Positions 27,812 to 48,765 of a stretch of DNA of 64,000 bases are shown piece by piece. The translations under genes were made by a program, and so were the position numbers. The notes beneath the pieces are model-generated. The model did no database searches and was not told where the DNA came from. It saw nothing but the letters and a program-made list of their open reading frames with translations. This DNA is from Seonamhaeicola sediminis. Lineage in GTDB: Bacteria > Bacteroidota > Bacteroidia > Flavobacteriales > Flavobacteriaceae. The stretch is from the NCBI RefSeq assembly GCF_004358095.2, contig NZ_SMZJ02000001.1, positions 496,001 through 560,000 on the forward strand. The letters run 5' to 3'. Within the stretch, counting starts at the first letter, position 1, and every line of letters begins with the position of its first letter.

Positions 27812-29596
27812 TTATTTAGACATCAGTTGATTGGTATCTAAATGTATCACAAAATTATCAGATGGTGCTCCGTTTAAAAACTTTTTAAAGATTATACAGA
27901 ATTGTAAGAAGTCATTTTCTATTTCTGATGGCTCACTAATCTCTTTAAAATGAACCAAGTAGGCTTCTATAATGCTTTTATAGTTTTCAATTTTTTTTGC
28001 TCCAATATCTTGAAATGCCAACGTATCTGCAGAACGCAAGCGATACAAATCGAATAACATATCAAAACCTGTCCAGTCCTCAAATCCTTCTAAAGAGTTT
28101 TTGTCAATTGGAACAAATTCTGAAACACTATTCTTGGTTAAACTCAGTAAAAATTTGGTAAACGGAATATCCCAATCGTTTTGCAAAAACCTATCATTAA
28201 TTAGACCTTTCAAATGGCTTTGTGTAAAATCTCTATAGCTTTTAGCATCTAAAATTGTTGAATCCCATAACGTACTAGCATCTTTACTTTTTAAATGGGC
28301 GTACTCTTGTTGATATAATGGAAAAAGTTCCTTAAATCTGGGCACATTGTCTATCACTACAGTCTCAATCTCAACTTCATCTGCGGAGAACCTTGCAACT
28401 TTATAAGCAGGAATATATGCCGATAGTGAAGGAACTTGCACATTTACCAAACTACCTGATTCAAAAGTAGCGACACCTGTATCATTAATATGCATGTGCC
28501 CTCCAAAATGTACTTTTACACCGGTTTCAATAAATGCTTTGGCTACTGCTTCTTCTGGTACACGATGCAATTGCATTTTATTTTCTCTTAGTAACATTCG
28601 TATGTTTTCTGAAGCACCATCGTTAAATTCTACGGTTGGAAAATGGCTAAACACGATTAATTTTTTATTCAACGTTTTTGCACGTTGTGTCACGCTTTTT
28701 ATCCATGCTATCAGATGTGACTTATGCGATAATACATTATTATAGCCAATACTTGCACTGTTATAGTTATTGGCATCCTTAGGTACATACGCATTAGCAT
28801 CAATAGCTAAAAACCATAGTCCCTCTGTCGGTTCTACCAAATAACTCACATCGGGAATTTGGCTTCCAAAGGGTGGGATTTTGTAATTTCTATTTGATAA
28901 TTCAGCTTGTTTTAGAGCTTCATCAAATTGATAATTATCGTAATCATAATCTGTAAATGGTGTCTCCCAATACACATCATTTTGTTTTGGATAGAAACCG
29001 AAATCTTTTAATTCATTTAAGATGTCTTCGTAACCTAATTTTGCAATATCTTTTGTATAAATAGGTGCTAACGCGTTGGAGTCTTTCGCTTTGTATATCT
29101 CTTCTGAACTAAATATGGGTTGCCGTTTTCCGCCTTCGCCTATAAAATCATGCTTGCCCGCTTCTTGGTAAAATGGACGCACCGGGTCGTGATTACCCGT
29201 AGTTAAAATAAACTTAATATTATGTTCTTCCGAATACTTTTTTAAAATCCGTTTTAAGCCCTTGATATTCACCATTTGCCCATCATCACTAAAATCTCCA
29301 GGCAATACCACGTATTTAATATTTTTGGATACTATATCGTCTAAAGCCGACAAAAAAGCGAAGTAGTTTTCATTGAACAACCGTGTAGATTGTAACTGAG
29401 ACTGCATGGTTCTGGATAGTGTATAGGTATTCGTTTCAGGGTTTAAAACACCCTTATAATCACTATCAGAAAAACTACCGTAGATATCTTGCAAATGCAC
29501 ATCTGCCATAAAAGCTACTTTATAGCTTTTATCATCCCTTTCTTTTTTACAAGAAAGACACACCAATAGTATTAATATGATGATACTTCTGTGCAA
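27812..29596 (-). CDS. Calcineurin-like metallophosphoesterase lipoprotein
   Basis: A 594-residue lipoprotein (lipobox CLSC, Cys16). The metallophosphoesterase motifs are in order: FMADVHLQD (Asp32, His34), LPGDFSDDG (Asp102), TTGNHDPV (Asn136, His137), VFSHFPT and GGHMH, which together bind two metals. It is larger than a bare phosphoesterase because of insertions and a C-terminal region of about 200 residues with no clear domain. It removes phosphate from monoesters or cuts diesters outside the cytoplasm. In a mannan locus, likely targets are phosphomannose, or inositol phosphate released by the PI-PLC-like neighbour. It lies 7 bases after GH115 and 4 before the HTCS. Confidence 0.87.
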   Translation of the reverse strand: MHRSIIILILLVCLSCKKERDDKSYKVAFMADVHLQDIYGSFSDSDYKGVLNPETNTYTLSRTMQSQLQSTRLFNENYFAFLSALDDIVSKNIKYVVLPGDFSDDGQMVNIKGLKRILKKYSEEHNIKFILTTGNHDPVRPFYQEAGKHDFIGEGGKRQPIFSSEEIYKAKDSNALAPIYTKDIAKLGYEDILNELKDFGFYPKQNDVYWETPFTDYDYDNYQFDEALKQAELSNRNYKIPPFGSQIPDVSYLVEPTEGLWFLAIDANAYVPKDANNYNSASIGYNNVLSHKSHLIAWIKSVTQRAKTLNKKLIVFSHFPTVEFNDGASENIRMLLRENKMQLHRVPEEAVAKAFIETGVKVHFGGHMHINDTGVATFESGSLVNVQVPSLSAYIPAYKVARFSADEVEIETVVIDNVPRFKELFPLYQQEYAHLKSKDASTLWDSTILDAKSYRDFTQSHLKGLINDRFLQNDWDIPFTKFLLSLTKNSVSEFVPIDKNSLEGFEDWTGFDMLFDLYRLRSADTLAFQDIGAKKIENYKSIIEAYLVHFKEISEPSEIENDFLQFCIIFKKFLNGAPSDNFVIHLDTNQLMSK

Positions 29597-29603
29597 TATT
29601 TTG

Positions 29604-32555
29604 CTATTTTAGTTTAGTTTCAGATGGAAAGGCATACGAGGTTTTCCAACCGCCTAAATCAATTAAAATCTGGTCTAACATCACTCCGGGGTCTACCATC
29701 CAAATCTTTAATTTATGCTTTCCAGCTGTGTTTACTATTTGCTTAGCGGATTTTACCGATGCATTTTTTAATACATTTTGCTTCCAAGTTTGACTTCGTC
29801 CAAAAGTCTGAAAATCAACTATTACAGGTTCTGCATCATCTATAGCTACTGCACAACGCACACCCGTATCATTATTAAAAGCATGAGTAGGCACAGCCTG
29901 TAAAAACACATCTACCTCTCCAAAATTAAAGGTATAAAAATCATATTCTAAAATAGGACTATTTTGCTTTATGCCTTCAATAGTGGTTTCAGAAGTTGCG
30001 CTTCGCGGAAGTGCCACACTTACATTTCCTGAGTAGCCTAGACCAGAGAAGGTGGTCCATTTGGCTTTCTTTCCGTCTGTTTTTCTAGTGAAATTTTCAG
30101 CATTTATAGATACAAAACCTTTGTCTTCAACAAAACCTTTATAATTTTCTAAATCTTCAAACTTTGGATTGAAGACCGAAACACCAAGCGTTGTAGTTTT
30201 GTTTTTGGTTACTACATCTATAGCCGAATTCACTTTGTAACTTGGCGGTATTAATTGATAATCGTGTCCTAACGGAGCTTCCTTTTTATTTTCGCCCTGC
30301 GGTACTTTATCCCAGTCTATGGTAACCCAAATACGCTCTTCTAATTGGTTTTCATCTAATTTCCCCGAGGTTTTAGAAAGTATAATCCAATCGTCTTTTG
30401 GTTGTAATTCCCACTCCAATTCGCCTTGTCCATTTAAAAACACATCCATGTAATATGTATTCTCAGTGTAAGCATTAAACACAGGAAAAACATCGGCATA
30501 AGAATTTATAATCTCATCATTTACCTCCATTTGATAGCTCTCGATGGCTATCCCCAAGGTATTTGATTTTTCGGTTAAAGGAATAGACGCCGTTGGCTCT
30601 GAAAACACGGGCAAGTGCCTAGGCGACATGCTCATGATATGCTTCCATTTTCCATTTTGAAGCGTGTTATTAAAATAATCGGTTTCCTTTTGAATGGTTT
30701 TGTAAGCCTCTAAAGATTTCGTTGCAAAATCCTTGGCACTCTCTCGCCCTTGTGATGCTACAAAAGCATTTTTATAACTGTACAACCATTTTAAATTTAG
30801 GTTCGAGGCACCCGAAATTGGATAATAAACGAGTTGATAAAAGGCATCTGCCCTATGGCTGGGAATATTTTTTTGAATAGCCTTCACACGAGTAATTAAA
30901 TCTTGATACGTTTTGATACGCTTGCTAACCTCATCGCCATAATGGTATTGCGTCAACTCGGTGTTGCCCGGTTTGGTAACAGGCTCCACACTACTCCACG
31001 CCATAAACTCAGGTCGCCTTTGAAACGCCAATTGATTGTATTGATACATCAAATCGGTAATAGCCTCTGCATTGTTTTTTCCAAATTCTCTGGCGCTCCA
31101 ATCCTTTTGATGTGCTCTAACGGCATTGTCATTTTTAAAGCCATCAATATCCCAAGCCATGTCCAAAAACAGCTCGATATTATATTCATGTGGCTTAATA
31201 TCGCCACAATTCAAAATCCAAATATTTTGAGACCCAAACTCGTATGCTTTGGTCATTTCTTCCCACATTAAAACAGGATTCGTCGAGTTTAACCATAAAT
31301 AATCATGTGGCCTACCCCAGTAGGACGTGTGATAATAAACGCCTGCTCCTCCGCTTCGTTTTTGCTCTTCAGCATTACTTAATTGCCGAATATACCCGTA
31401 GTTATCGTCGGTCCAAACCAAACTTACATCTTCCGGTAAATCCAATCCGCTTTGGTAGTAATGCAACACCTCTTTATATGGCACAAAAGCCTGTGGTTTT
31501 GTAATGCCTTTTTTAGAATTTGCTTTTAAAATCTCGCGTTGGTCGGTTATAACCTGTTCTAAAAGTTTTACTTGCGAATCGGTATCATCTTCTCCAACAA
31601 TCATTGGGGAGTCGTGTTCCCCACGCATACCAACGGTATAAATACCTTCAAAATTTGCGGTTTCTTTAGCACGTTTTTTGAATAAGGATTTTATCGATTC
31701 TGAATTGGTATCGTATCGATAATCGCCCATAGTAGCATGATTCCATTCTGCATTGATATTGCACAACATAGGCTCTGCATGCGATGTACCGATAACAATA
31801 GCGTAATTATCGGCTACTATTTTATTTTGTGGATAGTGGTAAAATGCCTTGGTACATTTGTGCATGGCGGGCCAAACAGTATTAGCTCGTAGGCGCAACA
31901 ATAGTTCAAATACTTTGGCATAGGTTTTTGGGCCTATATCTCCCGTTTCTGGTTCGTAATTGAGTGCCGACCACCGTTGCAAGCCCCAATCTTCGTCATT
32001 TAAAAATATGCCTCGGTATTTTACTGATGGTGTTCCGTAGGTTTTGTTTTCAACATTAAGCACAATACTTTCTTGCTTTTCTGGAGTAACATCTGCCCAC
32101 CATTCCCACGGGGAAACGCCAATCCTTCTAGAAATTTCTAAAAGTCCGTAAGCCGTTCCTCTTCGGTCTGAACCAATAATGACTAATGCTTTTTTTATGC
32201 CTTTTGAAGGATTTTCAATGACCTGAATCGTGTAGGTTTCCCATTTTCCTCTAATTTGAGAGATATCAATAGCGTGTTTGTTAATGAGTTGATTGATAAC
32301 TTTACTGTTCCCCAATGTTCCTACTATAATTTGACATGAGGCTTTCTTTTGATGTTTCACAACCGTTTTCCCTGAAACTTTTTGGATATCGCTCGCCAAA
32401 ATATCTGAAGCAATATCGACGACTTTGGCATCCCTTTTATCTATGATAATAGAGGCTACTTCTCCATTTTGAACTATTGGAAATTGAATACTATTTTGCC
32501 CCCAAAGAGAAGAACAAATTATTAGAAATATGAATCTTATATAGCGTTTATTCAT
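29604..32555 (-). CDS. GH115 alpha-glucuronidase
   Basis: An exported protein of about 983 residues when started at the second methionine (MNKRYIRFIFLII), which gives a proper signal peptide; an upstream in-frame ATG at 32594 would add 13 unlikely residues. GH115 features include the N-terminal domain with IIVGT and YGLLEISRRIGVSPWEWWADV, then KYRGIFLNDEDWGLQRW, RLRANTVWPAMH, TSHAEPM and GMRGEHDS. A C-terminal domain of about 170 residues completes the family architecture. GH115 enzymes remove (4-O-methyl-)glucuronic acid from inside or ends of glycans, best known from xylan. With GH92 and no xylanase nearby, a glucuronic acid branch on mannan is more likely. The start overlaps the PI-PLC-like gene by 8 bases. 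Confidence 0.92.
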   Translation of the reverse strand: MNKRYIRFIFLIICSSLWGQNSIQFPIVQNGEVASIIIDKRDAKVVDIASDILASDIQKVSGKTVVKHQKKASCQIIVGTLGNSKVINQLINKHAIDISQIRGKWETYTIQVIENPSKGIKKALVIIGSDRRGTAYGLLEISRRIGVSPWEWWADVTPEKQESIVLNVENKTYGTPSVKYRGIFLNDEDWGLQRWSALNYEPETGDIGPKTYAKVFELLLRLRANTVWPAMHKCTKAFYHYPQNKIVADNYAIVIGTSHAEPMLCNINAEWNHATMGDYRYDTNSESIKSLFKKRAKETANFEGIYTVGMRGEHDSPMIVGEDDTDSQVKLLEQVITDQREILKANSKKGITKPQAFVPYKEVLHYYQSGLDLPEDVSLVWTDDNYGYIRQLSNAEEQKRSGGAGVYYHTSYWGRPHDYLWLNSTNPVLMWEEMTKAYEFGSQNIWILNCGDIKPHEYNIELFLDMAWDIDGFKNDNAVRAHQKDWSAREFGKNNAEAITDLMYQYNQLAFQRRPEFMAWSSVEPVTKPGNTELTQYHYGDEVSKRIKTYQDLITRVKAIQKNIPSHRADAFYQLVYYPISGASNLNLKWLYSYKNAFVASQGRESAKDFATKSLEAYKTIQKETDYFNNTLQNGKWKHIMSMSPRHLPVFSEPTASIPLTEKSNTLGIAIESYQMEVNDEIINSYADVFPVFNAYTENTYYMDVFLNGQGELEWELQPKDDWIILSKTSGKLDENQLEERIWVTIDWDKVPQGENKKEAPLGHDYQLIPPSYKVNSAIDVVTKNKTTTLGVSVFNPKFEDLENYKGFVEDKGFVSINAENFTRKTDGKKAKWTTFSGLGYSGNVSVALPRSATSETTIEGIKQNSPILEYDFYTFNFGEVDVFLQAVPTHAFNNDTGVRCAVAIDDAEPVIVDFQTFGRSQTWKQNVLKNASVKSAKQIVNTAGKHKLKIWMVDPGVMLDQILIDLGGWKTSYAFPSETKLK

Positions 32556-33612
32556 TTTTGATGTCTTTAAAACGTTCGTAAGTACCGTCCTCAAATTTTA
32601 CTTCAAAAGTAGATTTGAACAATCTTGAAGGTTGATAATAATCGGTTGAAATAACTTGTGCTCCAGAAGCTTTTGCTTTTTCAAATTTGGTGGAATCATT
32701 TGTTCTGGCTTCTTTAGTTCCTGCATCGGCACGTGTACGAACCATATAGCCTTTTGCCACCAACTGCTTGATATATTCAAAATCGGCAATAGGATTGTTT
32801 ACAATTCTAAACGCCGATTCTGGATTTCCTTCTTTACTATTTACAAAAAATACGCGATTTTTTAAAGTAGAATCACCATTCATGTATAGGCTATTTTTAT
32901 GAGCCTTTTCATCTAAAACAAACAGAAATTTCCCTTTACATTCTTCTAATTCTGGCCAACCTTGTTTTAAAACGGCTTCTTCTAAAGTATCATGGTTTCC
33001 TCTTACATCATCGGGTCGTATTAAATCCTCTGTTGTAAATACTGAAAATATTTCAGCATCTAATTCTTGATAGGCTTTCGCTGAAAAGGGAATTGGTTTG
33101 GTTAAGTCTGGTATTACCTTGTCTTTCGTATTCATTAAAATTATGATGGGCAGATGTGCAGGATTGTTATCCGACCATTTCTTCATCGCTTTTAACGCCT
33201 CTTTGAATAACAAATGATGACTTCGAAAATCGATATCTTGGATATGAAATAGTTTAAACCCCGGTTGTTTTAATTGTTTTGCTTCGTCATAAGGCATTGG
33301 CGTTTCTCCCGATTGTTTTACAATGTCTAAGCCTTTCGGATTTGAAAAATGACTGCCTTTGGGGTCGTAAAACACATCTAGCTCTAAATTACGTATGCCA
33401 AGATTTAACTGTGCTTCTATGGAAATATGCTCGTATTCCAATGACTTCGCTTTACTGGAATCTTTTAAAGCGATGTAGTTTAAAAGTGGTTGTTCAATCG
33501 CTATTTTATAGGAATTGTGGCTCCCTATAACCTGAATATCATTTAGCTTTATGCGTTGCTCTTTTGAACACCCAAAACTTAGAAGCACAACAAGTAGAAC
33601 AAAGTGCTTCAT
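32548..33612 (-). CDS. PI-PLC-like phosphodiesterase lipoprotein
   Basis: A 354-residue lipoprotein (lipobox SFGC, Cys15) of the phosphatidylinositol-specific phospholipase C superfamily, closest in look to the calcium-dependent Streptomyces type. GSHNSYK carries His32; IRNLELDVFYD carries Glu77 and Asp79, the likely calcium ligands; LFHIQDIDFRS carries His123, the second catalytic His; and LPIIILMNTKD is a conserved barrel strand. Known relatives cleave phosphatidylinositol to diacylglycerol and inositol phosphate. The gene overlaps GH115 by 8 bases and follows GH125 by 2 bases, so it is fully embedded in the glycan locus. GPI anchors or inositol phosphoglycolipids are possible substrates. 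Another phosphodiester is also possible. Confidence 0.82.
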   Translation of the reverse strand: MKHFVLLVVLLSFGCSKEQRIKLNDIQVIGSHNSYKIAIEQPLLNYIALKDSSKAKSLEYEHISIEAQLNLGIRNLELDVFYDPKGSHFSNPKGLDIVKQSGETPMPYDEAKQLKQPGFKLFHIQDIDFRSHHLLFKEALKAMKKWSDNNPAHLPIIILMNTKDKVIPDLTKPIPFSAKAYQELDAEIFSVFTTEDLIRPDDVRGNHDTLEEAVLKQGWPELEECKGKFLFVLDEKAHKNSLYMNGDSTLKNRVFFVNSKEGNPESAFRIVNNPIADFEYIKQLVAKGYMVRTRADAGTKEARTNDSTKFEKAKASGAQVISTDYYQPSRLFKSTFEVKFEDGTYERFKDIKNE

Positions 33613-33614: not shown

Positions 33615-35054
33615 TTAAATGGATTTAAGTAGGTCTGGCTTTTCGTTGTATAATTTCAAAATTAACTCGCCAAAAAGGGTGTTTGCCCAAGCAAACCAAG
33701 AGCGCGAAAATTTGGACGCATCATCTTTATGGAAAGTTTCGTGCATAAACCCCTTGCCATCATGCGTGTTCATGAGTTGTTTTACACACCACACAATTTC
33801 AGAATCGCTATCGCTGGTCATGGCTCGTAATATAATCCCCATAGGCCAAATGGTATCTAATCCTGCGTGCGGACCGCCTTGTCCTTCGCCTGCTTTTCCT
33901 TTAAAATAGTATGGGTTGTCGTCACTTAACAGATAAGCTCTTGTATTTTTATACGCCTCTAAATCATAATACTGCTCGCTCATTAAATACTTCATGGCGA
34001 TTAAAGATGGAATGTTTGGGTCGTCTATAAATGCTTTGTTACCAAAACCGTCCACTTCAAAGGCATATACTTTACCATAGTTTAAGTGTTCCGAAATGGC
34101 ATATTTGTTTACAGCGCTTAACACTTCGTCTGAAAAGGATTGACATCCTTCTGAAAACACTTTATCGCAAAGAACATCATTATAAATCTTGCTTAACTGT
34201 GCTAGAGACTCCACCGCAAATAAATTAGATGGAATCAAAAATGGGTACATCGTGCCATCATCTGATGGTCTAAACGCAGAACAAATGAGACCCACGGGTT
34301 TTATTGGCCTGCCTTTTCCACTAAAGGGAGCTGTAACGTTTTTATTCCTTCTAACACGCTCAAAATAATAGGGTGTTTCTCCATTTTTACGTTGCTCTGT
34401 TCTTAGCGTTTTTACTACGAGTCTCATGGCTTTATCCCAATCTGAATCAAAAACCGATGTGTCGCCAGTTTCCTTATAATATCCATAAGATAAACGAATA
34501 GCGTAGCATAACGAATCTATTTCCCATTTACGCTCATGCACTCCTGGTATTGGCGTTGGACGGTCATCCTTCCATTTGGTTTCTCTGGTCAGGTCTTTAT
34601 AAAATGCGTTGGCATAGGGGTCTAACAAAATGCATTTGGTTTGCCTGTTGATTAAACCTTTAAATAGCTTTTTTAATGCTTTATCTTGATTTACCAAAGG
34701 CAAATAAGGCCATACTTGGGCTGTAGAATCCCTGAGCCACATGGCGTCAATATCGCCAGTAATAACAAAGGTATCTGTTTTGTTATTCATGACTTCGAAA
34801 TCTACCGTGGTATCTAAAGTGTTTGGAAAACAGTTTTCAAAAAGCCACGACAATTCTGGGTTTTTTATGCCCTTTTTTACCGTTTTAATGGTATTTTCAA
34901 CGGCTTGACTTATAAAGGTTCTATCGGCTAATGGTGGTCTATTAGATGTATAAGATGATATACTTGAAGCCATCGTAAATGCCGAGCAACTTAGTGTCGC
35001 AACTCCCGTTGTACCAATAATTGTTTGCTTTATAAATTTTCGTCGTGTGGTCAT
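33615..35054 (-). CDS. GH125 exo-alpha-1,6-mannosidase
   Basis: A 479-residue protein with a twin-arginine leader (TTRRKFIKQ) and a possible lipobox (TLSC, Cys23). The GH125 core is clear: FENCFPNTLDTTV, then DIDAMWLRDSTAQVWPYL (residues 101-118), YAFEVDGFGNKAF and EGQGGPHAGLDTIWPMGI, all hallmarks of the (alpha/alpha)6 barrel. GH125 enzymes are inverting, metal-independent exo-mannosidases specific for alpha-1,6-linked mannose and are common in N-glycan and mannan loci. It follows a GH92 after 43 bases and precedes the PI-PLC-like gene by 2 bases. Confidence 0.93.
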   Translation of the reverse strand: MTTRRKFIKQTIIGTTGVATLSCSAFTMASSISSYTSNRPPLADRTFISQAVENTIKTVKKGIKNPELSWLFENCFPNTLDTTVDFEVMNNKTDTFVITGDIDAMWLRDSTAQVWPYLPLVNQDKALKKLFKGLINRQTKCILLDPYANAFYKDLTRETKWKDDRPTPIPGVHERKWEIDSLCYAIRLSYGYYKETGDTSVFDSDWDKAMRLVVKTLRTEQRKNGETPYYFERVRRNKNVTAPFSGKGRPIKPVGLICSAFRPSDDGTMYPFLIPSNLFAVESLAQLSKIYNDVLCDKVFSEGCQSFSDEVLSAVNKYAISEHLNYGKVYAFEVDGFGNKAFIDDPNIPSLIAMKYLMSEQYYDLEAYKNTRAYLLSDDNPYYFKGKAGEGQGGPHAGLDTIWPMGIILRAMTSDSDSEIVWCVKQLMNTHDGKGFMHETFHKDDASKFSRSWFAWANTLFGELILKLYNEKPDLLKSI

Positions 35055-35097: not shown

Positions 35098-37395
35098 CTA
35101 CTTTGTCCCAGTCATTTCAAGTTTTAGCACCCCGCCGTTAGTTAAGGATTTATGAGACACATTAAATTTAGGCAAATCCTCGTTATTAAAAGAGGCCTCT
35201 TTTATGAAAACATTAGAACTGCTATTGTCTACAGATTGAATCTCCAAAGTCTTCCCTGAATAATATTCTGGATGTAATTGGATGGTTACCTTATCAAAAA
35301 TAGGACTTCCTATTTGATACTCCGGATTTTCCTCTGTACCTCCATTCACTTGAAACAGCCCAATTTTTATTAAAACGGCTAAACTTCCCATGAGGCCTTG
35401 GTCTTCATCGCCATTGTATCCTGTGGATGGGGCTAAACCACCAAAAACCTTAGAAGCTACTTGCCTAGACCAATAGTGGGTTAAATCTGGTCTTCCTAAT
35501 TTATTGAAAATAAAAGCTGTTTGAATGGAAGGCTGATTTCCATAATTTATGGGGATTTTACGATATTCTGGATGTAATTCTGAAGCATGCGATGTTCCCG
35601 AGGTAAAGTTTAATTGTTCCGCTTGTTCAAATTGTGTATTCAATTTATTGACAGCTTTGTCCTTGCCTCCCATGAGTTCAGCTAGTCCATCGTAATCATG
35701 AGGTACAAACCAAGTAGATTGCGCGCCATTGGATTCTATAAACCCTTCTTCGTAGGTATACGGACTATAGTCTACCTGCATTTTACCATCCACATTTTTG
35801 GCTTGCATCCAGCCCTCATCATTTAAAAGCTTTCCATAATTTTTTGAACGTTTTAGGAAGTATTCATAATCTTCCGTTTTATTCAGCTTCAATGCCAATT
35901 GGGCCAATACCCAATCTTGATAGGCATACTCTAAAGTTAAACCTGCACCATCTTGATGTCCGCCAAACTTCCCTTTAGGGTTAGGATGTGGCACAAAGCC
36001 TTTTTCCATATAGAAATCCAGTCCGCCACCAATATTGGTTTTATGCTCATAACCCGCTTTTTCCATAATACCTCCTTCTACATGGTTTTTCTTCAAAGCG
36101 TTATATATAGCTTCTATATTTTCCTTCAAAATACCTTTTTGAATCGCGCTGACAAAAAACGGTGTGGCTGGGGTACCTGTCATAACGTAGGTATAATTTC
36201 CACCTGATGGTCCTCTGGGAACCAAGCCTCCATCTTTATAATATTGAAGAAAAGACATGGCAAATTCCTCATAAATATCTGGGTAAGCTAGTCCCCAGAG
36301 TGTATTTAGTGTCCATTGCGCTCCCCAAAGTGCATCAGAATTGTAATGATTAAATTTTGGTTTTCCTGAAGCATCTAATGGCAATTGTCCAATCTTAAAT
36401 TTACCTCCAGTATTATCCGGATACGCACCATTGACATCATTAATAATGCGTCTGCCCTGAAGTGCATGCCATAAATCTGTATAAAAACGTCTTTGTTGTT
36501 TCTCGGTATTACCTTCAACCTTTATTCTACTCAATAACGAATTCCAATGGTCTTTAGAATCTTTAACTACCGCTTCAAAATCCCAGTGCGGTAACTCTGT
36601 TTTAAGATTCAAGTTTGCATTTTCTTCTGAAGTGTACGAGATAGCCACCTTCATAAGTAAGGGATTTTCCAAATCCTTAAAATGCATCAAGTAATTGCCT
36701 GTTGCTTCATCTTTTTGTAATTCGGTTACTGGAATATCGAGACTTACTCTAAAGAATACCTTAAATTCTTGAGGCCTTCTGTGGGTTGGTGTTGCCACTA
36801 CTGAACCCGCAAATTCCGTATCACTAATTTGGCGTAATTCGCCTTGGGCATTATCTGATGGCCCAAGTATGGTATTCAAATTAAATAGAACGGCATTTTT
36901 GGTGTTTTCTGGAAAGGTATACTTATGAAAACCCACTCTTGTGGTACTGGTAAGCTCTGTTTTAATATCATAACGTTGTAGTTTCAAGCTATGATAACCA
37001 GGTGTTACCGTCTCATTATCATGACTGAATTTTGAATAAAAATCCTTAAAAACGGTTTTAGTATTCGCATCAGAAAGTGTTACCGGCATAACCGACACAC
37101 CCGATATTTGCCAACCATGTATATGGCTAAAGCCTTTAATGGTATCGGTTTTATAACGATAACCACTGCCCCAAGCACCGTCTATTTCGTTATCTGGACT
37201 TAGGTTTACCATGCCAAATGGGCGACATGCTGATGAAAAGAAAAACCATCTGGAATTCTCTGTATCTAAATGCGGATATACCAAACTCGCGTAATCCATT
37301 GCTTTTTTGGTTTTATCAACAGTTGTTTTATCTTCATTTTTACATGAAAACAGTATACTTAAAACGGTTATTGTTACTATTAAATATTTTCTCAT
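35098..37395 (-). CDS. GH92 exo-alpha-mannosidase lipoprotein, divergent
   Basis: A 765-residue lipoprotein (lipobox ILFSC, Cys18). It has the two-domain GH92 plan: an N-terminal beta-sandwich and an (alpha/alpha)6 barrel, with DALWGAQWTLNTLWGLAYPD, YTYVMTGTPATP and the loop NGDEDQGLMGSLAVLIKIGLF near the C-terminus. In typical GH92 this last loop reads GNDDCGQMSAWY-FGLGFYP, so the catalytic acidic residues are kept but the surroundings differ. The substrate-binding region reads YGNQPSIQTAFIF where others have GNEPCHHVPYLY. It is therefore the most diverged GH92 here and may prefer another linkage. GH92 enzymes are calcium-dependent inverting exo-mannosidases. Confidence 0.88.
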   Translation of the reverse strand: MRKYLIVTITVLSILFSCKNEDKTTVDKTKKAMDYASLVYPHLDTENSRWFFFSSACRPFGMVNLSPDNEIDGAWGSGYRYKTDTIKGFSHIHGWQISGVSVMPVTLSDANTKTVFKDFYSKFSHDNETVTPGYHSLKLQRYDIKTELTSTTRVGFHKYTFPENTKNAVLFNLNTILGPSDNAQGELRQISDTEFAGSVVATPTHRRPQEFKVFFRVSLDIPVTELQKDEATGNYLMHFKDLENPLLMKVAISYTSEENANLNLKTELPHWDFEAVVKDSKDHWNSLLSRIKVEGNTEKQQRRFYTDLWHALQGRRIINDVNGAYPDNTGGKFKIGQLPLDASGKPKFNHYNSDALWGAQWTLNTLWGLAYPDIYEEFAMSFLQYYKDGGLVPRGPSGGNYTYVMTGTPATPFFVSAIQKGILKENIEAIYNALKKNHVEGGIMEKAGYEHKTNIGGGLDFYMEKGFVPHPNPKGKFGGHQDGAGLTLEYAYQDWVLAQLALKLNKTEDYEYFLKRSKNYGKLLNDEGWMQAKNVDGKMQVDYSPYTYEEGFIESNGAQSTWFVPHDYDGLAELMGGKDKAVNKLNTQFEQAEQLNFTSGTSHASELHPEYRKIPINYGNQPSIQTAFIFNKLGRPDLTHYWSRQVASKVFGGLAPSTGYNGDEDQGLMGSLAVLIKIGLFQVNGGTEENPEYQIGSPIFDKVTIQLHPEYYSGKTLEIQSVDNSSSNVFIKEASFNNEDLPKFNVSHKSLTNGGVLKLEMTGTK

Positions 37396-41116: not shown

Positions 41117-41129
41117 AATGAAGTTAAAA

Positions 41130-41163
41130 ATAAAGGCAGACATGTAAAAGTATCTGCCTTTAT
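41130..41163 (-). terminator. Hairpin between susCD and the glycosidase genes
   Basis: Perfect 11-base inverted arms, ATAAAGGCAGA (41130-41140) and TCTGCCTTTAT (41153-41163), around a 12-base loop. On the transcribed minus strand the stem is followed by a T-rich stretch (TTTTT at 41125-41129). This is a rho-independent terminator or attenuator that would give more susCD than downstream enzyme mRNA. Confidence 0.7.
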
Positions 41164-41230: not shown

Positions 41231-42889
41231 TTAGTAGTTTGGATTTTGCTGTATTGAACCCTCGGATAATGCTACCTCATTATCAGGTATTGGTCTTACC
41301 AAATGTGTATTAGCATTAAAAGCTCCATGATCTACAATATGAGGGTTATGAATGTTTATACGTTCTTCTAATTTTCCAGTTCTTTTCAAAACAGCCCATC
41401 TATCTTCTTCACCTGCCAGTTCAATAGCTCTCTCATCAAGAATGGTATCGATATTTACAGTAGTGTAATGATTTGCTACACCTGTAGCACGTTCTCTAAC
41501 TCTATTCAAATGACTTAAGGCAGCACTTGTATTACCTGCTCCAAGATGAGCCTCGGCAGCTATCAAATGCGTTGCTGCAATTCTAAATATGAATGCATCT
41601 CTAGAACCCCCATTCTCTGCGTCAATACCCACATCATCAAACTTTTTGAATATTGGAAAATTAGTCCTAAGCACGTTAGATGAATACTGGTAAATTACAC
41701 CAGGAATATTATCTGGTAACCCAAACAAGTACTGATCTGGTTGGTACACCCAGTACCTTTGTAATTTATCCGCTAATTCTGCAGGGGCTAGTGGTGTTTT
41801 AGGGTAATAAACTATGGTATCTCCAGGAATTACATTGTCAGAACCTTCAGGCGAAGTGAATGTAGCAGCCTCGTCGGCATATAATACTCTATGCAACGTT
41901 GCTTCATCTCTTGTATCATTAGCCGCCAACAAATCAAAGAAACGCGGTGTTGGCATTAAACCTGTATTGTTGGCTCCGTAAGGATTACCTCTTCCAATAC
42001 CTACATAATCATTCACAGGGTTCATAAAAATACCGTGTTTAGAATTATTTCTATCATCAAAATTACCACCAGGGCCATATTGTACAGCAAAAAGAACCTC
42101 AGGGTTTACCTGATTTCCATAATCAAAGACTTGAGCATAGGTTTGACTTCTAATATCATAAGACCCTATGGCTTGTTCTGCTTAATTTGCAGCGGTTGTA
42201 AAATCTGAAGCGCTACCAAAAGACTTATAAGCTCTAGTTAAATAGACATCGGCCAATAAATGTTGCGCTGCACGTTTTGATATTCTGCCTGTTTGAGGGC
42301 TATCTAACAAGTTTGGAATAGCAGCTTCTAAGTCAGTGATAATTTGGTCAAAAGTTTCTTGCTCGCTAGAACGCACATAATCTGTACGAATAGAATTGGT
42401 TTCATTCAGTTCTAAAACAATACCTCCAAAGTGTTTAGCTAAATTATAAAACCCTAAGGCTCTTAAAGCTTTAGCCTGAGCAATACCATAATCACGATCT
42501 GCTAATTTAGCATCACTCCAACTAATTTGATTTTCATAACGATTAATAACAGTATTGGCCTCAGAAGTTAAAGCATAATTAGCTCCCCAATAACCTGCTG
42601 AAGCACCCTCACTTGCAGTTAATCCGAAATAATCATTTAGTGGTGAATTACTTCTTACATCATCCTGAGAAGTAAACATATCTGTTCCAGCAAACGTAAT
42701 TCCATAATTCTTGTAAACACCCCTTAAGTGGCTATAAACTGAGACTACTAACGCATCAGCATTATCCTCATTAATTGAGTTTTCCACTACCAAACCGCCG
42801 TAAAACTCTTCTTCAATATAACTGTCACACGCCGCAGTTACAAACGCTAGAGCAATTATAATATATTTTATTTTAAAAATTGATTTCAT
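41231..42889 (-). pseudogene. SusD-like glycan-binding lipoprotein, broken by one in-frame TAA
   Basis: A reading frame of 552 sense-length codons with the expected SusD layout: lipoprotein signal ending at Cys21 (TAAC), the helical TPR-rich N-terminal part (ALRALGFYNLAKHFGGIVLEL) and a C-terminal part ending ALSEGSIQQNPNY. It is interrupted once, at 42182-42184, by TAA after residue 235. The frame then continues unchanged: TTAAN, stop, AEQAIGSYDIRSQTY. A single T-to-A change in a TTA leucine codon would explain it. If real, the outer-membrane binding lipoprotein partner of SusC is lost or truncated to 235 residues. A sequencing error is an equal possibility. It follows susC after 19 bases. 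Confidence 0.88.
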
Positions 42890-42908: not shown

Positions 42909-45900
42909 TTATAGTGATACATTTAATCCGAATAATACAACTTTAGTCATATAACCGGCTCCGTAAGAATTCTGTAATCCTGACTCTGGGTCTGGTCCCT
43001 CATAATCTGTAAAAACAAATGGATTTTGAATATCTAAAGACAATCTTGCACCATCCAATTGGATTTTATCTAAAAATGCTGAAGGCAAAGTATACGAAAA
43101 TCCTATATTACCAACTTTTACGAAATCAAACGATTCGTAATAGTATTCACCAGGATGCGCATAAGATAGAGCTGGTCTAGAAGCATTAGGGTTGTTCGGC
43201 GTCCAATAATCAATATTAATCTTATTAAATTTAGCCTGATCATTTTGGTATGGTGCAAAATTTTGGTACCACTCGGAATGTCCAAGAGAACCTTGACGCG
43301 TATTAATTTGAATTCTAGCTTCAAAATTCTTGTATGTAAAGGTATTTGTCATACCTGCAATCCAATCCGGAGTAGGTGAACCAATAACCACTTTATCTTC
43401 ATTGTTAATAACACCATCATTATTTTGATCTACAAACTTATATTGCCCAGGTCTTGCTCCAAAAGTAGCTGCCTCTGCATATTCATCTAATTGCCATATG
43501 CCATCATTTTCAAAAGAGAAGATTGCCGCAGGGTCTTCTCCTACTTTTGTCACACCATGACGTCCAAAAGGCACCTCTTCAACATCTCCATCTATTCTTA
43601 GGATTTCATCTCTATTTCTTGAGAAGTTAAAATTTGTTGTCCATTTAAAATTATCGTTTTGTATGTTGGTTGTATTCAATACAAATTCAAATCCTCTACT
43701 TCTTACTTCACCAAAATTTCCTATGGCACTACTAAAACCTGATAAGGCTAAAAGTGATCTTGGAAACAAGCTGCCATCAGTATCTTTATTGTAGTAATCC
43801 ATAGTAATATTAACTCTACTATTCAACAAACTAAAATCAAGACCAACATTTGTTTCGGTAGATACCGCCCAAGTCAACTCGGTATTCGGTAACCCAGCTA
43901 CAAATTGTGTGTTTACTAAGTCATCACCAAGCAAATAAGTTGAATTCCCTAAAAAAGACAAGGATGAGTAAGGTCCAACCGTATCAATATTACCCGTTTG
44001 CCCATAACTTAAACGAACTTTCATATTACTGAGCCAATCAATATTTTGCATAAAATCTTCTTCTGAAACTTTCCATGCTAAAGCTGCAGATGGAAAGAAA
44101 TCCCACTTATTACCAACCGCTAAACGCGAAGCACCGTCATAACGCCCTGTTAAAGTTAGTAAGTATTTGTCTTTGTAGGCATAATTTACTCTGGCTGCAA
44201 AAGAGGCAATATTGTCCTTTAAAAACCCACTGTTATAATCGCGAATATCTAAACCAGCACGTGTATTAAAGAATAAGAAATTATCGGTATTTAAATTACG
44301 TGTTTGAATATCTCCTCTTTCAAATTCTCTTAGAAATAAAGAAGAAATTAAGGTAGCCTTTACATTATTATTTTCATCTAAATCAAAATTCATGTTAGCA
44401 ATATTATCCCAAGTATAGGTAACCACGGAAGCTGAGTTATATACAGCACGTGTTCTGTTAGGTTCGTTCCTTGCTGCCTTGGTTAGCAATCCTCTAGATT
44501 CTCCATTCCTATCATAGGATACACTTGGTGAAAATTGTGTTTTTAAATCCAACCATTTTAATGGCTTGTATTGTAAAAAAGCATTAGCTATAATATCAAA
44601 ACGTTTTGTGTTTAAGCGCCATGCTCCTTGTTCTTCATAGATTGGATTGATAAATCGTTGGTCTTGTTCATCTGGAATTAAATCTAAGGAACCATCATCA
44701 TTAAATGGATTAACTGTAGGTGCTAAGCGAAATGAACTTCTAAACAATTCAAGACTCCCTTGTTCTCTTTCTGAATATGACAAATAAGCTTTTACTCCAA
44801 AAGTTAGTTGCTCATTAACTTTTTTACTAAGAGCTGCTGATAGATTATATCTCTCAAAAGCTTCAATGCCTACAACCCCTTCATCTTTTAAATAACCAAT
44901 AGATGTGTTATAAACTAAACCATTTTCTCCTCCTGAAGCGGAAAGGGTGTGACTTGTTTGTATCCCAGTTTCTTGAAATAAACCAATCCAATCTGTATAA
45001 TTTCTGTTTACAGCATTACTTTGTTCTTCTGCACCAATAAACTCAACCGTTGTATCTGGGACTATGCTGTTATAATCTGCTACGGTGGCTGGACCTCCAT
45101 TCAGTAAATTAGCAAAATCTCTAGCACGAACAACATCATTTACAAAAGCAACATATTCATCACCATTGTAAAAATTAGGAACATTTACGGCGCTACGTAC
45201 ACCAAAGGTTGCATCGTAAGTAAAACGCGTTCTACCTTCCAAACCGTTTTTAGTTGTTATAATCACAACACCATTTGCTCCTCTTGCTCCATAAATAGCT
45301 GTTGAGGAAGCATCTTTCAAAACATCTATTTGTTGAATATCAGCAGGATTTAATGCAATAATATTATCAAAGAAAATACCATCAACTACATAAAGAGGTT
45401 GAGATAAATCGCTAAAAGGAGAGTCACTAACACCATCATTACCTTGATTATTATTCCGTATAGATCCATTTCCACGAATATTGATGGATAAAGGTGCCCC
45501 AGGTTTATTATTCAAGACCCGAACATCTACACCAGCCAGACGCCCCTGAATTGCCGACGCTACATCTGTTTTTCTTTGCTCTACAACATCATCACTTCCA
45601 ATAGACACTACAGCACCAGTCAAATCTTTACGTTTAACTGCACCATAACCAATTACAACTACCTCGTCTAATTGCGCCGTATCTTCTTTCATTTGAACAT
45701 TTAAAGGCGATTGTCCTGAATAAACAATCTCTAAAGTCTGGTACCCCAGATAAGAAAATACAATAACAGCTCCATTGGTAGCCTCAATTGTATAATTACC
45801 ATCAAAATCTGTTGCAACACCTGTTGTTGTTCCCTTTATAAGGACATTTACACCCGGTATTGGCACATTTTGCTCGTCTGTTACAACACCTGATACAGTA

Positions 45901-45965
45901 TCCTGCGCAAATGCTATAGACGAGACCCCTATAAATAGGGTTAATAATAGTTTAAGTTTTTTCAT
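42909..45965 (-). CDS. SusC-like TonB-dependent glycan transporter
   Basis: A 1018-residue outer-membrane receptor of normal length. It has a signal peptide (about 20 residues, cleavage at FAQ), a carboxypeptidase-regulatory-like N-terminal domain (VSGVVTDEQNVPIPGVNVLIKG, in two pieces), the SusC-type TonB box region DEVVVIGYGAVKRKD, the plug domain (INIRGNGSIRNNN, IDVLKDASSTAIYGARGANGV) and a 22-strand barrel ending in the typical aromatic C-terminus (VLFGLNVSL). With SusD it imports oligosaccharides through the outer membrane using TonB energy. First gene of the locus. Transcription probably starts in the 334-base gap shared with the divergent inositol oxygenase gene. Confidence 0.95.
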   Translation of the reverse strand: MKKLKLLLTLFIGVSSIAFAQDTVSGVVTDEQNVPIPGVNVLIKGTTTGVATDFDGNYTIEATNGAVIVFSYLGYQTLEIVYSGQSPLNVQMKEDTAQLDEVVVIGYGAVKRKDLTGAVVSIGSDDVVEQRKTDVASAIQGRLAGVDVRVLNNKPGAPLSINIRGNGSIRNNNQGNDGVSDSPFSDLSQPLYVVDGIFFDNIIALNPADIQQIDVLKDASSTAIYGARGANGVVIITTKNGLEGRTRFTYDATFGVRSAVNVPNFYNGDEYVAFVNDVVRARDFANLLNGGPATVADYNSIVPDTTVEFIGAEEQSNAVNRNYTDWIGLFQETGIQTSHTLSASGGENGLVYNTSIGYLKDEGVVGIEAFERYNLSAALSKKVNEQLTFGVKAYLSYSEREQGSLELFRSSFRLAPTVNPFNDDGSLDLIPDEQDQRFINPIYEEQGAWRLNTKRFDIIANAFLQYKPLKWLDLKTQFSPSVSYDRNGESRGLLTKAARNEPNRTRAVYNSASVVTYTWDNIANMNFDLDENNNVKATLISSLFLREFERGDIQTRNLNTDNFLFFNTRAGLDIRDYNSGFLKDNIASFAARVNYAYKDKYLLTLTGRYDGASRLAVGNKWDFFPSAALAWKVSEEDFMQNIDWLSNMKVRLSYGQTGNIDTVGPYSSLSFLGNSTYLLGDDLVNTQFVAGLPNTELTWAVSTETNVGLDFSLLNSRVNITMDYYNKDTDGSLFPRSLLALSGFSSAIGNFGEVRSRGFEFVLNTTNIQNDNFKWTTNFNFSRNRDEILRIDGDVEEVPFGRHGVTKVGEDPAAIFSFENDGIWQLDEYAEAATFGARPGQYKFVDQNNDGVINNEDKVVIGSPTPDWIAGMTNTFTYKNFEARIQINTRQGSLGHSEWYQNFAPYQNDQAKFNKINIDYWTPNNPNASRPALSYAHPGEYYYESFDFVKVGNIGFSYTLPSAFLDKIQLDGARLSLDIQNPFVFTDYEGPDPESGLQNSYGAGYMTKVVLFGLNVSL

Positions 45966-46186: not shown

Positions 46187-46212
46187 CCTTTCCCAAAAAT
46201 TGTTTAATCCTG

Positions 46213-46220: not shown

Positions 46221-46299
46221 AAAAGACGGATTTAAACCATTAGCCTTTCTGGCAAATATACTATTGACATCAAACCCTAAATAACGTTAAATTTAAATT

Positions 46300-47157
46300 A
46301 TGGAAAAATCTCCTTTAAAAAACATAGAGCATTGGGAGGAAGATATATTGAAACGATATCCTGATCCAGACCTTCCGAAAAAAGAAAAAGAGGATTTTAG
46401 AAATTACGAAGACTCTGACAGGGCAGAAACCGTCAGAGAATTCTATAGATTAAATCACACTTACCAAACCTATAATTTTGTATGTGAAAAAGAGGCCGAT
46501 TTTTTAAAATTTAATCGCAAGGAAATGTCTTTATGGGAAGCTGTTGATTTCTTAAACACATTAGTGGATGATAGCGATCCTGATATTGATTTGGATCAAC
46601 TACAACATTTATTACAAACCTCTGAAGCTATTAGAGCTGATGGACACCCAGATTGGTTTGTTCTAACAGGGTTCTTGCACGATGTTGGTAAAGTTTTATG
46701 TTTGTTTGATGAACCGCAATGGGCTGTGGTTGGGGATACATTTCCAGTGGGATGTAAGTTCTCTGATAAAATTGTACATGCTGAGTTTTTTAATGCAAAC
46801 CCAGATTCCACAAACCCGAAATACAATACCAAATACGGAATCTATGAACCCAATTGTGGTTTAGATAATGTTAAAATGAGTTGGGGACATGACGAGTATT
46901 TATATCAAATTATGAAAGATTATTTACCTGAACCAGCGCTATACATTATTAGATACCACTCATTCTATGCGCAGCATCGTGAAAACGAATACAGTCATTT
47001 GATGAACGATAAAGACCATGAAATGTTTGAATGGGTGAAGGAATTTAACCCTTACGATTTATACACCAAAGCGCCCGTAAAACCTGATACTGAAGCCTTA
47101 AAACCTTATTACCAAGAACTTGTTAAAAAATACTTACCCGAAGTACTAAAATTTTAA
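46300..47157 (+). CDS. myo-Inositol oxygenase (MIOX)
   Basis: A 285-residue protein that matches animal and plant inositol oxygenase along its whole length. All six di-iron ligands are visible: His103 ([12 protein letters not shown]), His127 and Asp128 (TGFLHDVGK), His197 (SWGHDEYLY), His220 (IRYHSFY) and Asp253 (NPYDLYTK). The [15 protein letters not shown] and [10 protein letters not shown] blocks are also kept. The enzyme uses oxygen to convert myo-inositol to D-glucuronate in the cytoplasm. Bacterial inositol breakdown normally goes through inositol dehydrogenase and the iol genes, none of which is in the window. The product feeds directly into uxaC. A symporter gene follows after 33 bases; susC is divergent. 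Confidence 0.95.
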
Positions 47158-47190
47158 AAAAGAACAACTAATTAAACCAGCTAAAGAATA

Positions 47191-48765
47191 ATGCTTTACA
47201 CCTATCTTGGATTTTTCGGATTCACCTTATTTGTAATAATCTATACAACATACAAACTCCGAAAAGACAAGTTTACAACATCGCAAGGTTACTTTTTAGC
47301 TGGAAAAAGTTTAACAGGTCCTATCATAGCTGGATCTATGATACTCACCAATATTTCTACCGAACATTTAATTGGAATGAATGGTAGTTCCTATAAAAAT
47401 GGCATTATCATTATTGCTTGGGAAGTTACTTCTGCAATCGCCTTGGTGATTGCGGCCATTTATTTTATACCTAAATTCATTAAACTTGGAATTACTACCA
47501 TTCCCGAATTTTTAGAAAAACGTTTTGATGGAGCCATACGCTCTATTGTTGCTTTTCTATTAATGTCTTCATTTGTGATAACCTTATTACCAATTGTATT
47601 ATATTCAGGTGCTATAAACATTGAAAGCGTATTTGATTTTTCTGCCATATTTAACGTATCAAAGAGAGAATCGCTTATTTACACCGTACTAACCATTGGT
47701 ATTCTGGGTTCAATGTATGCCATTTTTGGAGGTTTAAAAGCTGTTGCCTATTCCGATTCATTAAACGGTATAGGACTAATGTTGGGAGGTCTTCTTATAC
47801 CCGTTATTGCTTTATATCAAATTGGTAACGGTAATATGTTTGAGGGTTTAAGCACTGTTTATGACTTTGCTCCTGATAAATTTGATATTATTGGAAAGCC
47901 GGATTCTGTGCTTCCATTTTCGGTCTTGTTTACTGGATTAATGATTAATCAATTATATTTCTGGGGGATGAACCAAGCCATTATTCAACGTGCCTTCGGA
48001 GCAAAAAATTTAGTAGAAGCTCAAAAAGGACTCATTTACACAGGTGCTTTAAAACTTTTTGTCCCTGCCATTATAGTCCTACCTGGCTTAATCGGATACT
48101 ATTATTTTCGAGACACTTATTATGAAAACCCAGATTTGATATACCCCATGCTCGTAAAAAAGGTATTGCCGTCTTACCTTTTTGGCTTTTTTGCGGCCGT
48201 AATTTTAGGAGCTGTATTAAGTACTTTTAATAGTGTACTTAACTCTGCCAGTACTATTTTTTGCTTGGACATTTACAAAAAAATCATAGACAAAAATGCT
48301 TCGGATAAAAAACTAGTAAAGTATGGCAAGATATCATCTGTTGTTCTTGCTTTAATTGCAATTGCGGTGGCTCCAATGGTTTCTTATGCCCCTGAGGGTT
48401 TATACCAACTATTACAAGAACTTAACGGTATATTCTTTATACCTATTTCTTCTATCATCATTGCTGGTATTTTCTTTAAACAGATAAATACTATTGGGGC
48501 TAAAGCAGGACTGTTCTTCGGATTTACATTTTATATTCTAACAACTTTTATACTGAATCTAGATATTCACTTTGTACATTTATGGGGTATTGAATTTGTA
48601 CTCAACTTCATAATCATGTTTTTAGTTTCTAGATTGTATCCGTCTCAAAAAACATCTGAATATTATCAAGAAACTGAACTTGAAGAAACTTCTTGGCCTA
48701 ATGTAAAAATGTATGGTGCCGTATTGGTGTTTTTAACGGTATTGATTTACGTTTTACTGTCTTAA
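47191..48765 (+). CDS. Sodium/solute symporter (SSS family), candidate inositol carrier
   Basis: A 524-residue membrane protein with about 14 helices. The SSS family pattern is clear: the QGYFLAGKSLTGPIIAGSMI stretch of helix 1 with ILTNISTEHLIGMNG, then ITTIPEFLEKRFDG, YAIFGGLKAVAYSDSLNGIG and NQAIIQRAFGAKN. The family uses sodium to drive uptake of sugars, inositol and other small solutes; mammalian inositol carriers belong to it. Placement 33 bases after inositol oxygenase, with no other gene on this strand, makes myo-inositol the best guess. Glucuronate is an alternative. Convergent with uxaA, with 6 bases between the stops. Confidence 0.87.
   Translation: MLYTYLGFFGFTLFVIIYTTYKLRKDKFTTSQGYFLAGKSLTGPIIAGSMILTNISTEHLIGMNGSSYKNGIIIIAWEVTSAIALVIAAIYFIPKFIKLGITTIPEFLEKRFDGAIRSIVAFLLMSSFVITLLPIVLYSGAINIESVFDFSAIFNVSKRESLIYTVLTIGILGSMYAIFGGLKAVAYSDSLNGIGLMLGGLLIPVIALYQIGNGNMFEGLSTVYDFAPDKFDIIGKPDSVLPFSVLFTGLMINQLYFWGMNQAIIQRAFGAKNLVEAQKGLIYTGALKLFVPAIIVLPGLIGYYYFRDTYYENPDLIYPMLVKKVLPSYLFGFFAAVILGAVLSTFNSVLNSASTIFCLDIYKKIIDKNASDKKLVKYGKISSVVLALIAIAVAPMVSYAPEGLYQLLQELNGIFFIPISSIIIAGIFFKQINTIGAKAGLFFGFTFYILTTFILNLDIHFVHLWGIEFVLNFIIMFLVSRLYPSQKTSEYYQETELEETSWPNVKMYGAVLVFLTVLIYVLLS

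Follow-up and report, generated by a model that had tools for sequence, protein, structure and literature searches.

Gene content and organization of the locus

A 64,000-nucleotide stretch of the Seonamhaeicola sediminis genome (contig NZ_SMZJ02000001.1, positions 496,001 to 560,000), hereafter called the window, contains a gene run in which alpha-mannosidase families are combined with a phosphatidylinositol-specific phospholipase C (PI-PLC) and a metallophosphoesterase (MPE), next to a gene for inositol oxygenase (MIOX). Judged from its gene families and their recurrence in other genomes, the locus probably takes apart the head group of plant glycosylinositol phosphoceramides (GIPCs), Man-α(1→4)-GlcA-α(1→2)-Ins-P-ceramide (Man, mannose; GlcA, glucuronic acid; Ins, inositol), and uses the sugars and the inositol. 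Window proteins were assigned by a Pfam scan and those of the locus also by an NCBIfam scan, which gave no match up to an E value of 0.001 for MPE, PI-PLC, GH115 or MIOX. The genes of the locus are as follows (window coordinates, strand, assignment):

42909..45965, minus strand, SusC/RagA TonB-dependent transporter, full length (TIGR04056, 792 bits)
42182..42889, minus strand, SusD-like lipoprotein, N-terminal part ended by TAA (PF14322)
41231..42025, minus strand, SusD-like protein, C-terminal part after the in-frame stop (PF07980)
39032..41143, minus strand, GH92, alpha-mannosidase family (Pfam)
37400..39028, minus strand, GH28 (best NCBIfam match rhamnogalacturonidase BT4146, under its cut-off)
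35098..37395, minus strand, GH92, alpha-mannosidase family (PF07971 and PF17678)
33615..35054, minus strand, GH125, metal-independent alpha-mannosidase family (PF06824, 524 bits)
32548..33612, minus strand, Ca2+-type PI-PLC (PI-PLC-C1), putative lipoprotein (PF16670, 416 bits; cut-off 29.9)
29604..32594, minus strand, GH115 (PF15979 and PF17829, 440 bits)
27812..29596, minus strand, MPE, putative lipoprotein (PF00149 calcineurin-like phosphoesterase, 43 bits)
23770..27807, minus strand, hybrid two-component sensor/regulator (HTCS; Reg_prop, Y_Y_Y, HisKA, HATPase, Response_reg and AraC HTH domains)
22305..23630, minus strand, FucP-like sugar symporter of the major facilitator superfamily (TIGR00885, 520 bits, above cut-off)
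46300..47157, plus strand, MIOX (PF05153, 374 bits; PDB 2huo)
47191..48765, plus strand, SSS sodium symporter (PF00474, 199 bits; NF007790 above cut-off)

The minus-strand run, read from 45965 to 22305, begins with SusC and ends with the FucP-like symporter, which adjoins the HTCS gene in genomes G044 and G152 as well. From the HTCS gene up to the first GH92 gene, the intergenic gaps measure 4, 7, -47, 2, 43, 4 and 3 nt; the 47-nt overlap stems from a TTG start codon, and use of an ATG 13 codons further in leaves an overlap of about 8 nt. MIOX and the SSS symporter point in the opposite direction to susC, from which they are separated by 334 nt. The Pfam assignments and gap lengths thus confirm what an initial annotation, made from the sequence alone, had reported, namely the packing of GH125, PI-PLC, GH115 and MPE in one run and the divergent orientation of MIOX and its symporter relative to susC. 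The two GH92 genes, GH28, the HTCS gene and the interruption of susD by an in-frame TAA were not part of that annotation. Linkage of glycoside hydrolase genes to a regulator of the HTCS type is a feature that the run has in common with polysaccharide utilization loci (PULs).

Recurrence of the gene set

The PI-PLC alignment was used as a search query, and the best 80 of 519 matches were taken as a set of loci for comparison. GH92 or HTCS genes were present in 46 of the 80 and lacking in 34; since the split was set by these two genes, only the others constitute independent evidence. Genes were grouped by single-linkage clustering, and counts were repeated by direct match to one reference each. 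GH115 or a GH115-like protein was encoded in 40 of the 46 loci with GH92 or HTCS genes, as opposed to none of the 34 others, and MIOX in the flanks examined of 23 of the 46, as opposed to 1 of the 34. The 46 loci contained genes for HTCS (44), MPE (44), GH115 (34), the GH115-like protein (18), GH125 (10), GH89 (7) and a DUF5009-like protein (7); direct recount left all of these, as well as the 40 and 23 given above, unchanged, whereas GH29 fell from 22 to 18. The 34 others contained MPE in 22 cases (19 by direct match, all 19 directly beside PI-PLC), no GH89 and, on direct recount, one HTCS match (L095). Where MIOX was missing from the flank (23 loci), whole-genome searches covered 17 genomes (L053, L070, L059 and L075 were left out); MIOX lay within 25 kb of the locus in 14, on another contig in 2 and was absent in 1 (L090). 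It is 14 kb away in L051 and L054, which apparently belong to G044 and G152.

Seven loci (L048-L054) from Seonamhaeicola, Hyunsoonleella, Algibacter and Maribacter show the same gene order as the window. Because the run recurs in 46 loci, an artefact of one assembly was ruled out as its source, the stop codon in susD excepted. GH89 was found in 7 of the 80 loci, all from Flavobacterium and all with GH115 and the DUF5009-like gene; the product of the latter, a weak match (19.9 bits; cut-off 25), is presumably an HGSNAT-like N-acetyltransferase. Outside Flavobacteriaceae, GH92, PI-PLC, GH115 and MPE occur together in two Marinilabiliales, Ancylomarina (L059; no MIOX in the flank examined, its whole genome lying outside the MIOX search) and the Prolixibacteraceae member L090, whose genome lacks MIOX, and a Fulvivirga locus (L113, Cytophagales) carries GH92, GH125, PI-PLC and MIOX without GH115 or MPE. 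Among the loci seen, the full set including MIOX is confined to Flavobacteriaceae and close kin.

Profile searches for PI-PLC, MIOX and GH115 were also performed in 249 genomes of the family. The two samples overlap, in that G044, G152, G203 and G229 very likely correspond to L051, L054, L084 and L089. PF16670 matched 22 of the 249 genomes; after omission of G072, G195 and G121, with short partial matches only, and of a second short match in G127, full-length PI-PLC was present in 19. One weak GH115 fragment (G002:C31:109972) was likewise left out. MIOX proteins were divided by score into a kind above 360 bits, to which the window protein belongs (17 places, in 17 genomes), and a second kind of 313-327 bits (24 places), with weaker rows, mostly below cut-off, left out. 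Twelve genomes contain both PI-PLC and MIOX of the window kind (Fisher's test, 3e-12, a value that serves as a guide only and is overstated since the genomes are related), and the two genes are at most 25 kb apart in 9 of the 19 PI-PLC genomes. In 13 of 17 places, MIOX of the window kind has GH115 or a GH115-like gene within 25 kb, as compared with 0 of 24 for the second kind; one of these 24 is equally close to PI-PLC. Chance adjacency of MIOX was ruled out by these co-localization counts. The commonest partner of MIOX is a glycan gene set with GH115, not the phospholipase; in G127, G135 and G137, MIOX has no GH115 nearby.

The same counts bear on the idea that the locus degrades a glucuronic-acid-bearing alpha-mannan, with PI-PLC and MPE scavenging phosphate and with MIOX and its symporter as an independent pair that landed alongside. 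GH92, GH125 and GH115 would suit such a glycan, combinations of PI-PLC, MPE and SusCD exist without glycosidases, and MIOX is found apart from such loci in G135 (with an SSS symporter) and G137. The repeated co-localization of MIOX with both GH115 and PI-PLC, which is all but missing for the second kind of MIOX, nevertheless makes this explanation unlikely. A second-kind MIOX gene 7 kb from PI-PLC in G006 (G006:C3:86117-86866) contains two TGA codons and is probably a pseudogene.

Conserved residues and structural relatives of the encoded enzymes

In the PI-PLC, His32, Asn33, Glu77, Asp79, His123, Lys163 and Asp164 were invariant among all 37 aligned proteins; His32 and His123 we take to be the catalytic pair, of which the initial annotation had noted both members. 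The AlphaFold2 model of the protein (mean pLDDT 93.4) retrieved Ca2+-dependent PI-PLCs at Foldseek ranks 1-11. By sequence as well as by fold, it matches PDB entries 3h4w and 5fyo, and it shares family, fold and the His pair with the enzymes of Streptomyces (3h4w) and Pseudomonas (5fyo, 5fyp, 5fyr), from which it differs in its low identity (14-19% by structure) and in having Asn161 where both are acidic. Within the 80-locus set, its closest relatives are those of L048-L050 (93-95% identical). As judged by a simple motif, PI-PLC and MPE have a lipoprotein-like N-terminus, and GH115 does not.

An alpha/beta hydrolase of the BD-FAE type (L007:649-2502; L034:17739-19358) is fused to PI-PLC in G207 or, in G203, encoded just before PI-PLC and combined with a SASA esterase domain, and 11 of the 80 loci resemble this arrangement as judged by the length of their open reading frames (ORFs). 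Such an enzyme may remove acyl or acetyl groups from the lipid head. The apparent doubling of PI-PLC in L059, L062, L063, L068, L084 and L086 is due to an ORF of 539-547 codons that clustered with PI-PLC via fusion proteins; the one product scanned (G203, L084) consists of an alpha/beta hydrolase and a SASA esterase.

The GH115 protein comprises both the catalytic and the C-terminal domain (PF15979 and PF17829), with BtGH115A (5by3) as closest solved structure. A tree of 82 GH115 rows, built by a quick method, midpoint-rooted and with some long branches, contained a clade of 45 members (support 100) made up of all 43 rows from loci of this type and 2 others, the latter belonging to the GH92, GH89 and SusCD loci of G100 and G117. 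The 43 rows represent 34 members of the 80-locus set, the window protein and 8 further ones (two pairs being identical). The 37 other rows fell outside the clade; of 44 strong GH115 places beyond these loci, 40 had been fetched and 39 had yielded tree rows. A clade of its own suggests a dedicated GH115, which fits a dedicated linkage, and we propose that the enzyme may cleave GlcA-α(1→2)-inositol.

Two further proteins were noticed in this context. The GH115-like protein, some 685 aa long (62 bits to PF15979; e.g. L060:1711-3765), is encoded in place of GH115 or alongside it in 18 of the 80 loci and possibly represents a separate alpha-glucuronidase family. In two loci without GH115 (L057:7124-8920 and L058:6562-8355), the gene between those for GH92 and PI-PLC encodes a 598-aa protein (cluster c30) that had no Pfam family at an E value of 0.001 and nothing above cut-off at an E value of 1; it is a candidate for an unknown glycosidase.

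The distribution of GH115 also argues against other inositol-containing targets. The initial annotation had described a mannan locus that strips mannose from glycosylphosphatidylinositol (GPI)-anchored mannoproteins or inositol-phosphate glycolipids and also harvests the inositol. The glycolipid class was the right one, and the use of inositol besides mannose is supported by the recurrence of the gene set; the emphasis on GPI and mannoproteins and the mannan label are probably wrong. For a GPI anchor (Man3-GlcN-Ins-P-lipid; GlcN, glucosamine), GH92, GH125, PI-PLC, MPE and MIOX would all be suitable, and since inositol carries GlcN at O-6, PI-PLC would not have to wait for its removal. GH89 and the DUF5009-like protein (7 of 80 loci, and G144, where no GH115 is in view) could remove GlcN, and GH85 and GH76 genes are found elsewhere in the window. 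A GPI substrate would, however, leave GH115, a member of an alpha-glucuronidase family, without a job, although it or its GH115-like counterpart occurs in 40 of 46 loci and its sequences form one clade; neither GH89 nor another gene for the glucosamine of the GPI core was seen among the scanned window proteins, and all seven GH89 loci of the 80-locus set carry GH115 too. We therefore regard GPI-anchored mannoproteins as an improbable target and favour GIPCs, for which GH115 has a role. The chances are poorer still for fungal inositol phosphoceramides or actinobacterial phosphatidylinositol mannosides, in which mannose is bound directly to inositol. Alpha-mannosidases, PI-PLC, MPE and MIOX would fit these lipids, and mannose and glucosamine cores are named beside the glucuronic acid core in the available part of one source (PMC6151786), but GH115 would again have nothing to do in 40 of 46 loci.

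The MPE residues D32, H34, D101, N135, H136, H318, H367 and H369, which presumably form the metal site, were kept in all 31 aligned proteins. In a Foldseek search with the AlphaFold2 model (mean pLDDT 93.2), 2xmo was the best match, followed by SMPDL3A/3B, with GpdQ lower. A PDB search with the single sequence gave no match up to an E value of 1, and a search with the alignment profile yielded only 2xmo below an E value of 0.1 (1.1e-9). For the MPE we propose one of two roles, as a phosphatase or phosphodiesterase acting on inositol phosphate or as a GIPC phospholipase C that resembles acid sphingomyelinase.

Bacterial PI-PLCs use the 2-OH group of inositol, so a GlcA residue at O-2 would block the enzyme, and GH115 would be expected to precede it, provided that the lipid cut is not the work of the MPE. 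This consideration is one point for a variant of the scheme with the same GIPC substrate, in which the MPE, as a GIPC phospholipase C, frees the phosphorylated head and PI-PLC comes in at a later stage or has other inositol lipids as substrates. The position of SMPDL3A right after 2xmo in the Foldseek ranking, the G153 locus, which has MPE and lacks PI-PLC, and a fungal putative sphingomyelinase described as a GIPC phospholipase C (PMC11496612, in part) agree with this order. On the other hand, the model scores low against SMPDL3A/B (TM-scores of 0.33-0.37 by query), the profile search retrieved 2xmo alone below an E value of 0.1, and the direct adjacency of a window-like MPE and PI-PLC in 19 of the 34 loci free of GH92 and HTCS genes suits a phosphatase that acts downstream of PI-PLC. 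An initial cut by the MPE is possible, if doubtful.

Proposed route for GIPC head groups

For each bond of Man-GlcA-Ins-P-ceramide, the locus encodes an enzyme of a corresponding family (GH92/GH125, GH115, PF16670 and PF00149, followed by MIOX), an assignment at the level of families only. The head structure with its GlcA-α(1→2)-inositol core has been described (PMC12498067, in part). GIPCs with N-acetylglucosamine (GlcNAc) or GlcN heads also exist, the latter thought to arise by deacetylation, according to the available part of a further source (PMC9113257). The presence of GH89 together with the DUF5009-like gene in the seven sister loci fits such heads. Acetylation of GlcN would have to precede the action of GH89.

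If GIPC heads are the substrate, GH92 and GH125 would first strip alpha-mannose; in sister loci, GH89 and the DUF5009-like protein would deal with GlcNAc or GlcN, and GH29, GH43 or GH3 with other sugars. GH115 would then take the alpha-1,2-linked glucuronate off inositol, after which PI-PLC, with the 2-OH group of inositol now free, could cut inositol phosphate from ceramide. SusCD-mediated import would take place before or between these three steps. The MPE would subsequently remove the phosphate, or, in the alternative order, make the first lipid cut. Inositol would enter via the SSS symporter and be oxidized by MIOX to glucuronate, which would share UxaC with the glucuronate released by GH115 and then be converted by the Uxu/Uxa enzymes to 2-keto-3-deoxygluconate. 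The HTCS would sense a head-group fragment and drive the run. The scheme is least certain as to whether GH115 or PI-PLC acts first.

The window contains genes for these proposed final steps. MIOX retains His103, His127, Asp128, His197, His220 and Asp253 at the iron-ligand positions of the mouse enzyme, which we take to be iron ligands here as well, in line with the earlier claim that all six are present. The symporter, whose closest solved relatives are the sodium/glucose cotransporters 2xq2 and 3dh4, is proposed to take up inositol. IolE, the sole other inositol-breakdown gene sought in the genome, gave no match above cut-off (290 bits; best match 56.7 bits, at C23). Genes for the glucuronate route, of which uxaC and uxuA had already been noted in the window, were found at these positions:

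48772..50397, minus strand, altronate/galactarate dehydratase (UxaA type; Pfam)
50404..51855, minus strand, tagaturonate reductase (UxaB type; Pfam, NCBIfam)
51861..53255, minus strand, glucuronate isomerase UxaC (PF02614, 677 bits)
952..2127, minus strand, mannonate dehydratase UxuA, in a distant part of the window

Several observations weigh against the proposed function. The in-frame TAA at 42182-42184 cuts SusD of the window locus, whereas SusD is a single ORF (550-564 aa) in L048-L054; a real loss, a variant of the strain or a read error may each account for the stop. GH28, present in 19 of the 46 loci with GH92 or HTCS genes, has no obvious bond to cleave in the GIPC head. In 6 of these 46 loci (L057, L058, L087, L092, L109 and L113), neither GH115 nor the GH115-like protein was found in the DNA examined. 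In some genomes the set is incomplete. G153 shares the gene order of the window except that PI-PLC is missing from the run; another contig encodes a PI-PLC of 48% identity. No PI-PLC or MPE gene was seen in the stretches examined, and no PI-PLC in the genome, in G164 and G115 (GH115, GH89, DUF5009-like, GH92, MIOX and SSS genes) and in G211 (GH115-like, GH92 and MIOX). G100 and G117 (HTCS, GH115, DUF5009-like, GH89, GH92 and SusCD genes) have no MIOX above cut-off and encode PI-PLC elsewhere, and G144 combines GH89, a DUF5009-like gene, GH28 and MIOX with no GH115 within the 19 kb examined. Some strains may use heads already freed by others; free inositol phosphate glycans occur in infected plants (PMC11496612, in part).

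Further points of this kind concern the enzymes and the substrate. Of the putative acidic or amide Ca2+ ligands of PI-PLC, Asn33, Glu77 and Asp79 are invariant; position 161 is acidic in the solved relatives (Glu in 3h4w, Asp in 5fyo) and Asn in the window protein, so that its use of Ca2+ may differ. Asn occupies this position in 36 of the 37 aligned proteins, including those from loci without glycosidases, and Glu in one (L113); in the family sample, loci without GH92 have Glu161 in 6 of 9 cases (G143, G127, G153, G014, G100 and G117) and Asn161 in 3 of 9 (G236, G172 and G135). Since PI-PLC has a lipoprotein-like start and GH115 does not, an order in which GH115 acts first fits uneasily. General scans revealed no gene for ceramide use, although no search was aimed at one. 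Many carriers of such loci are presumably marine, and no record of GlcA-core GIPCs in seaweeds or seagrasses was found in the literature.

Relation to known systems and implications

The PI-PLC and MPE families of the window locus have been described together before. As far as the available part of the report goes (PMC8115612), PUSI of Flavobacterium johnsoniae comprises PusCD1 (Fjoh_4168/9) and the PF16670 and PF00149 proteins Fjoh_4172/4173, is induced by phosphate depletion, lists an extracytoplasmic function (ECF) sigma factor and was contrasted by its authors with PULs bearing carbohydrate-active enzymes (CAZymes). PUSI and the window locus have in common a PF16670 PI-PLC, a PF00149 phosphoesterase and a SusCD-like pair, and many of the 34 loci free of GH92 and HTCS genes resemble PUSI. 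The window locus, unlike PUSI as described there, includes HTCS, GH92, GH125, GH115, GH28, MIOX and SSS genes and thus departs from a system characterized by an ECF sigma factor and no CAZymes. The sugar-inositol part with its HTCS would be the new element, added to a known core of PI-PLC, MPE and SusCD.

Bacteroidota PULs for alpha-mannan and N-glycans contain SusCD, HTCS, GH92 and GH125. The window locus shares these components and differs in that its run also contains or adjoins genes for PI-PLC, MPE, GH115, MIOX and a sodium symporter. The Botrytis GIPC phospholipase C BCIN07g04350 would act on the same proposed substrate and may be distantly related in fold to the MPE; in contrast to the window locus, it is a single fungal putative sphingomyelinase to which, in the available part of the source, no sugar or inositol catabolism is attached (PMC11496612). 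A study of inositol lipids in gut Bacteroidetes mentions GIPCs a single time in the portion available (PMC9246714). Within the open-licence literature, preprints excluded, neither a description of the full sugar-inositol locus nor a bacterial route for dismantling the GIPC head was found.

Taken beyond the window, the evidence leans slightly towards a class of loci, widespread in Bacteroidota and so far overlooked, that is dedicated to plant-type GIPC heads. Its variants would follow the head type of the host, with alpha-mannosidases for Man and GH89 plus the N-acetyltransferase-like protein for GlcNAc or GlcN. A GH115 subgroup would act on GlcA-inositol and MIOX would turn the inositol into the same acid, glucuronate; sugar, inositol and phosphate would thus all be taken by one regulated locus. 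GIPCs are stated to be major sphingolipids on Earth (PMC11907402, in part). Were the proposal true, such loci would represent a bacterial sink for this pool and give a reason for the presence of MIOX in them, a new linkage would be assigned to GH115, and phosphate scavenging would be joined to sugar catabolism. It would also predict a match between the head types used by plant-associated bacteria and those of their hosts that can be read from gene content, and provide candidate enzymes with which to release and sequence GIPC heads.

Neighbouring glycosidase genes

One further gene was assigned beside the locus, as it is in G044 and G152:

53309..55609, minus strand, GH92 (Pfam)

Genes for GH85, GH76 (a weak match of 29 bits) and four GH92 proteins besides the two of the run flank the locus at 5670-9032 and 53309-63903 of the window. 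Their presence suggests a second locus next door, directed at N-glycan or mannan.

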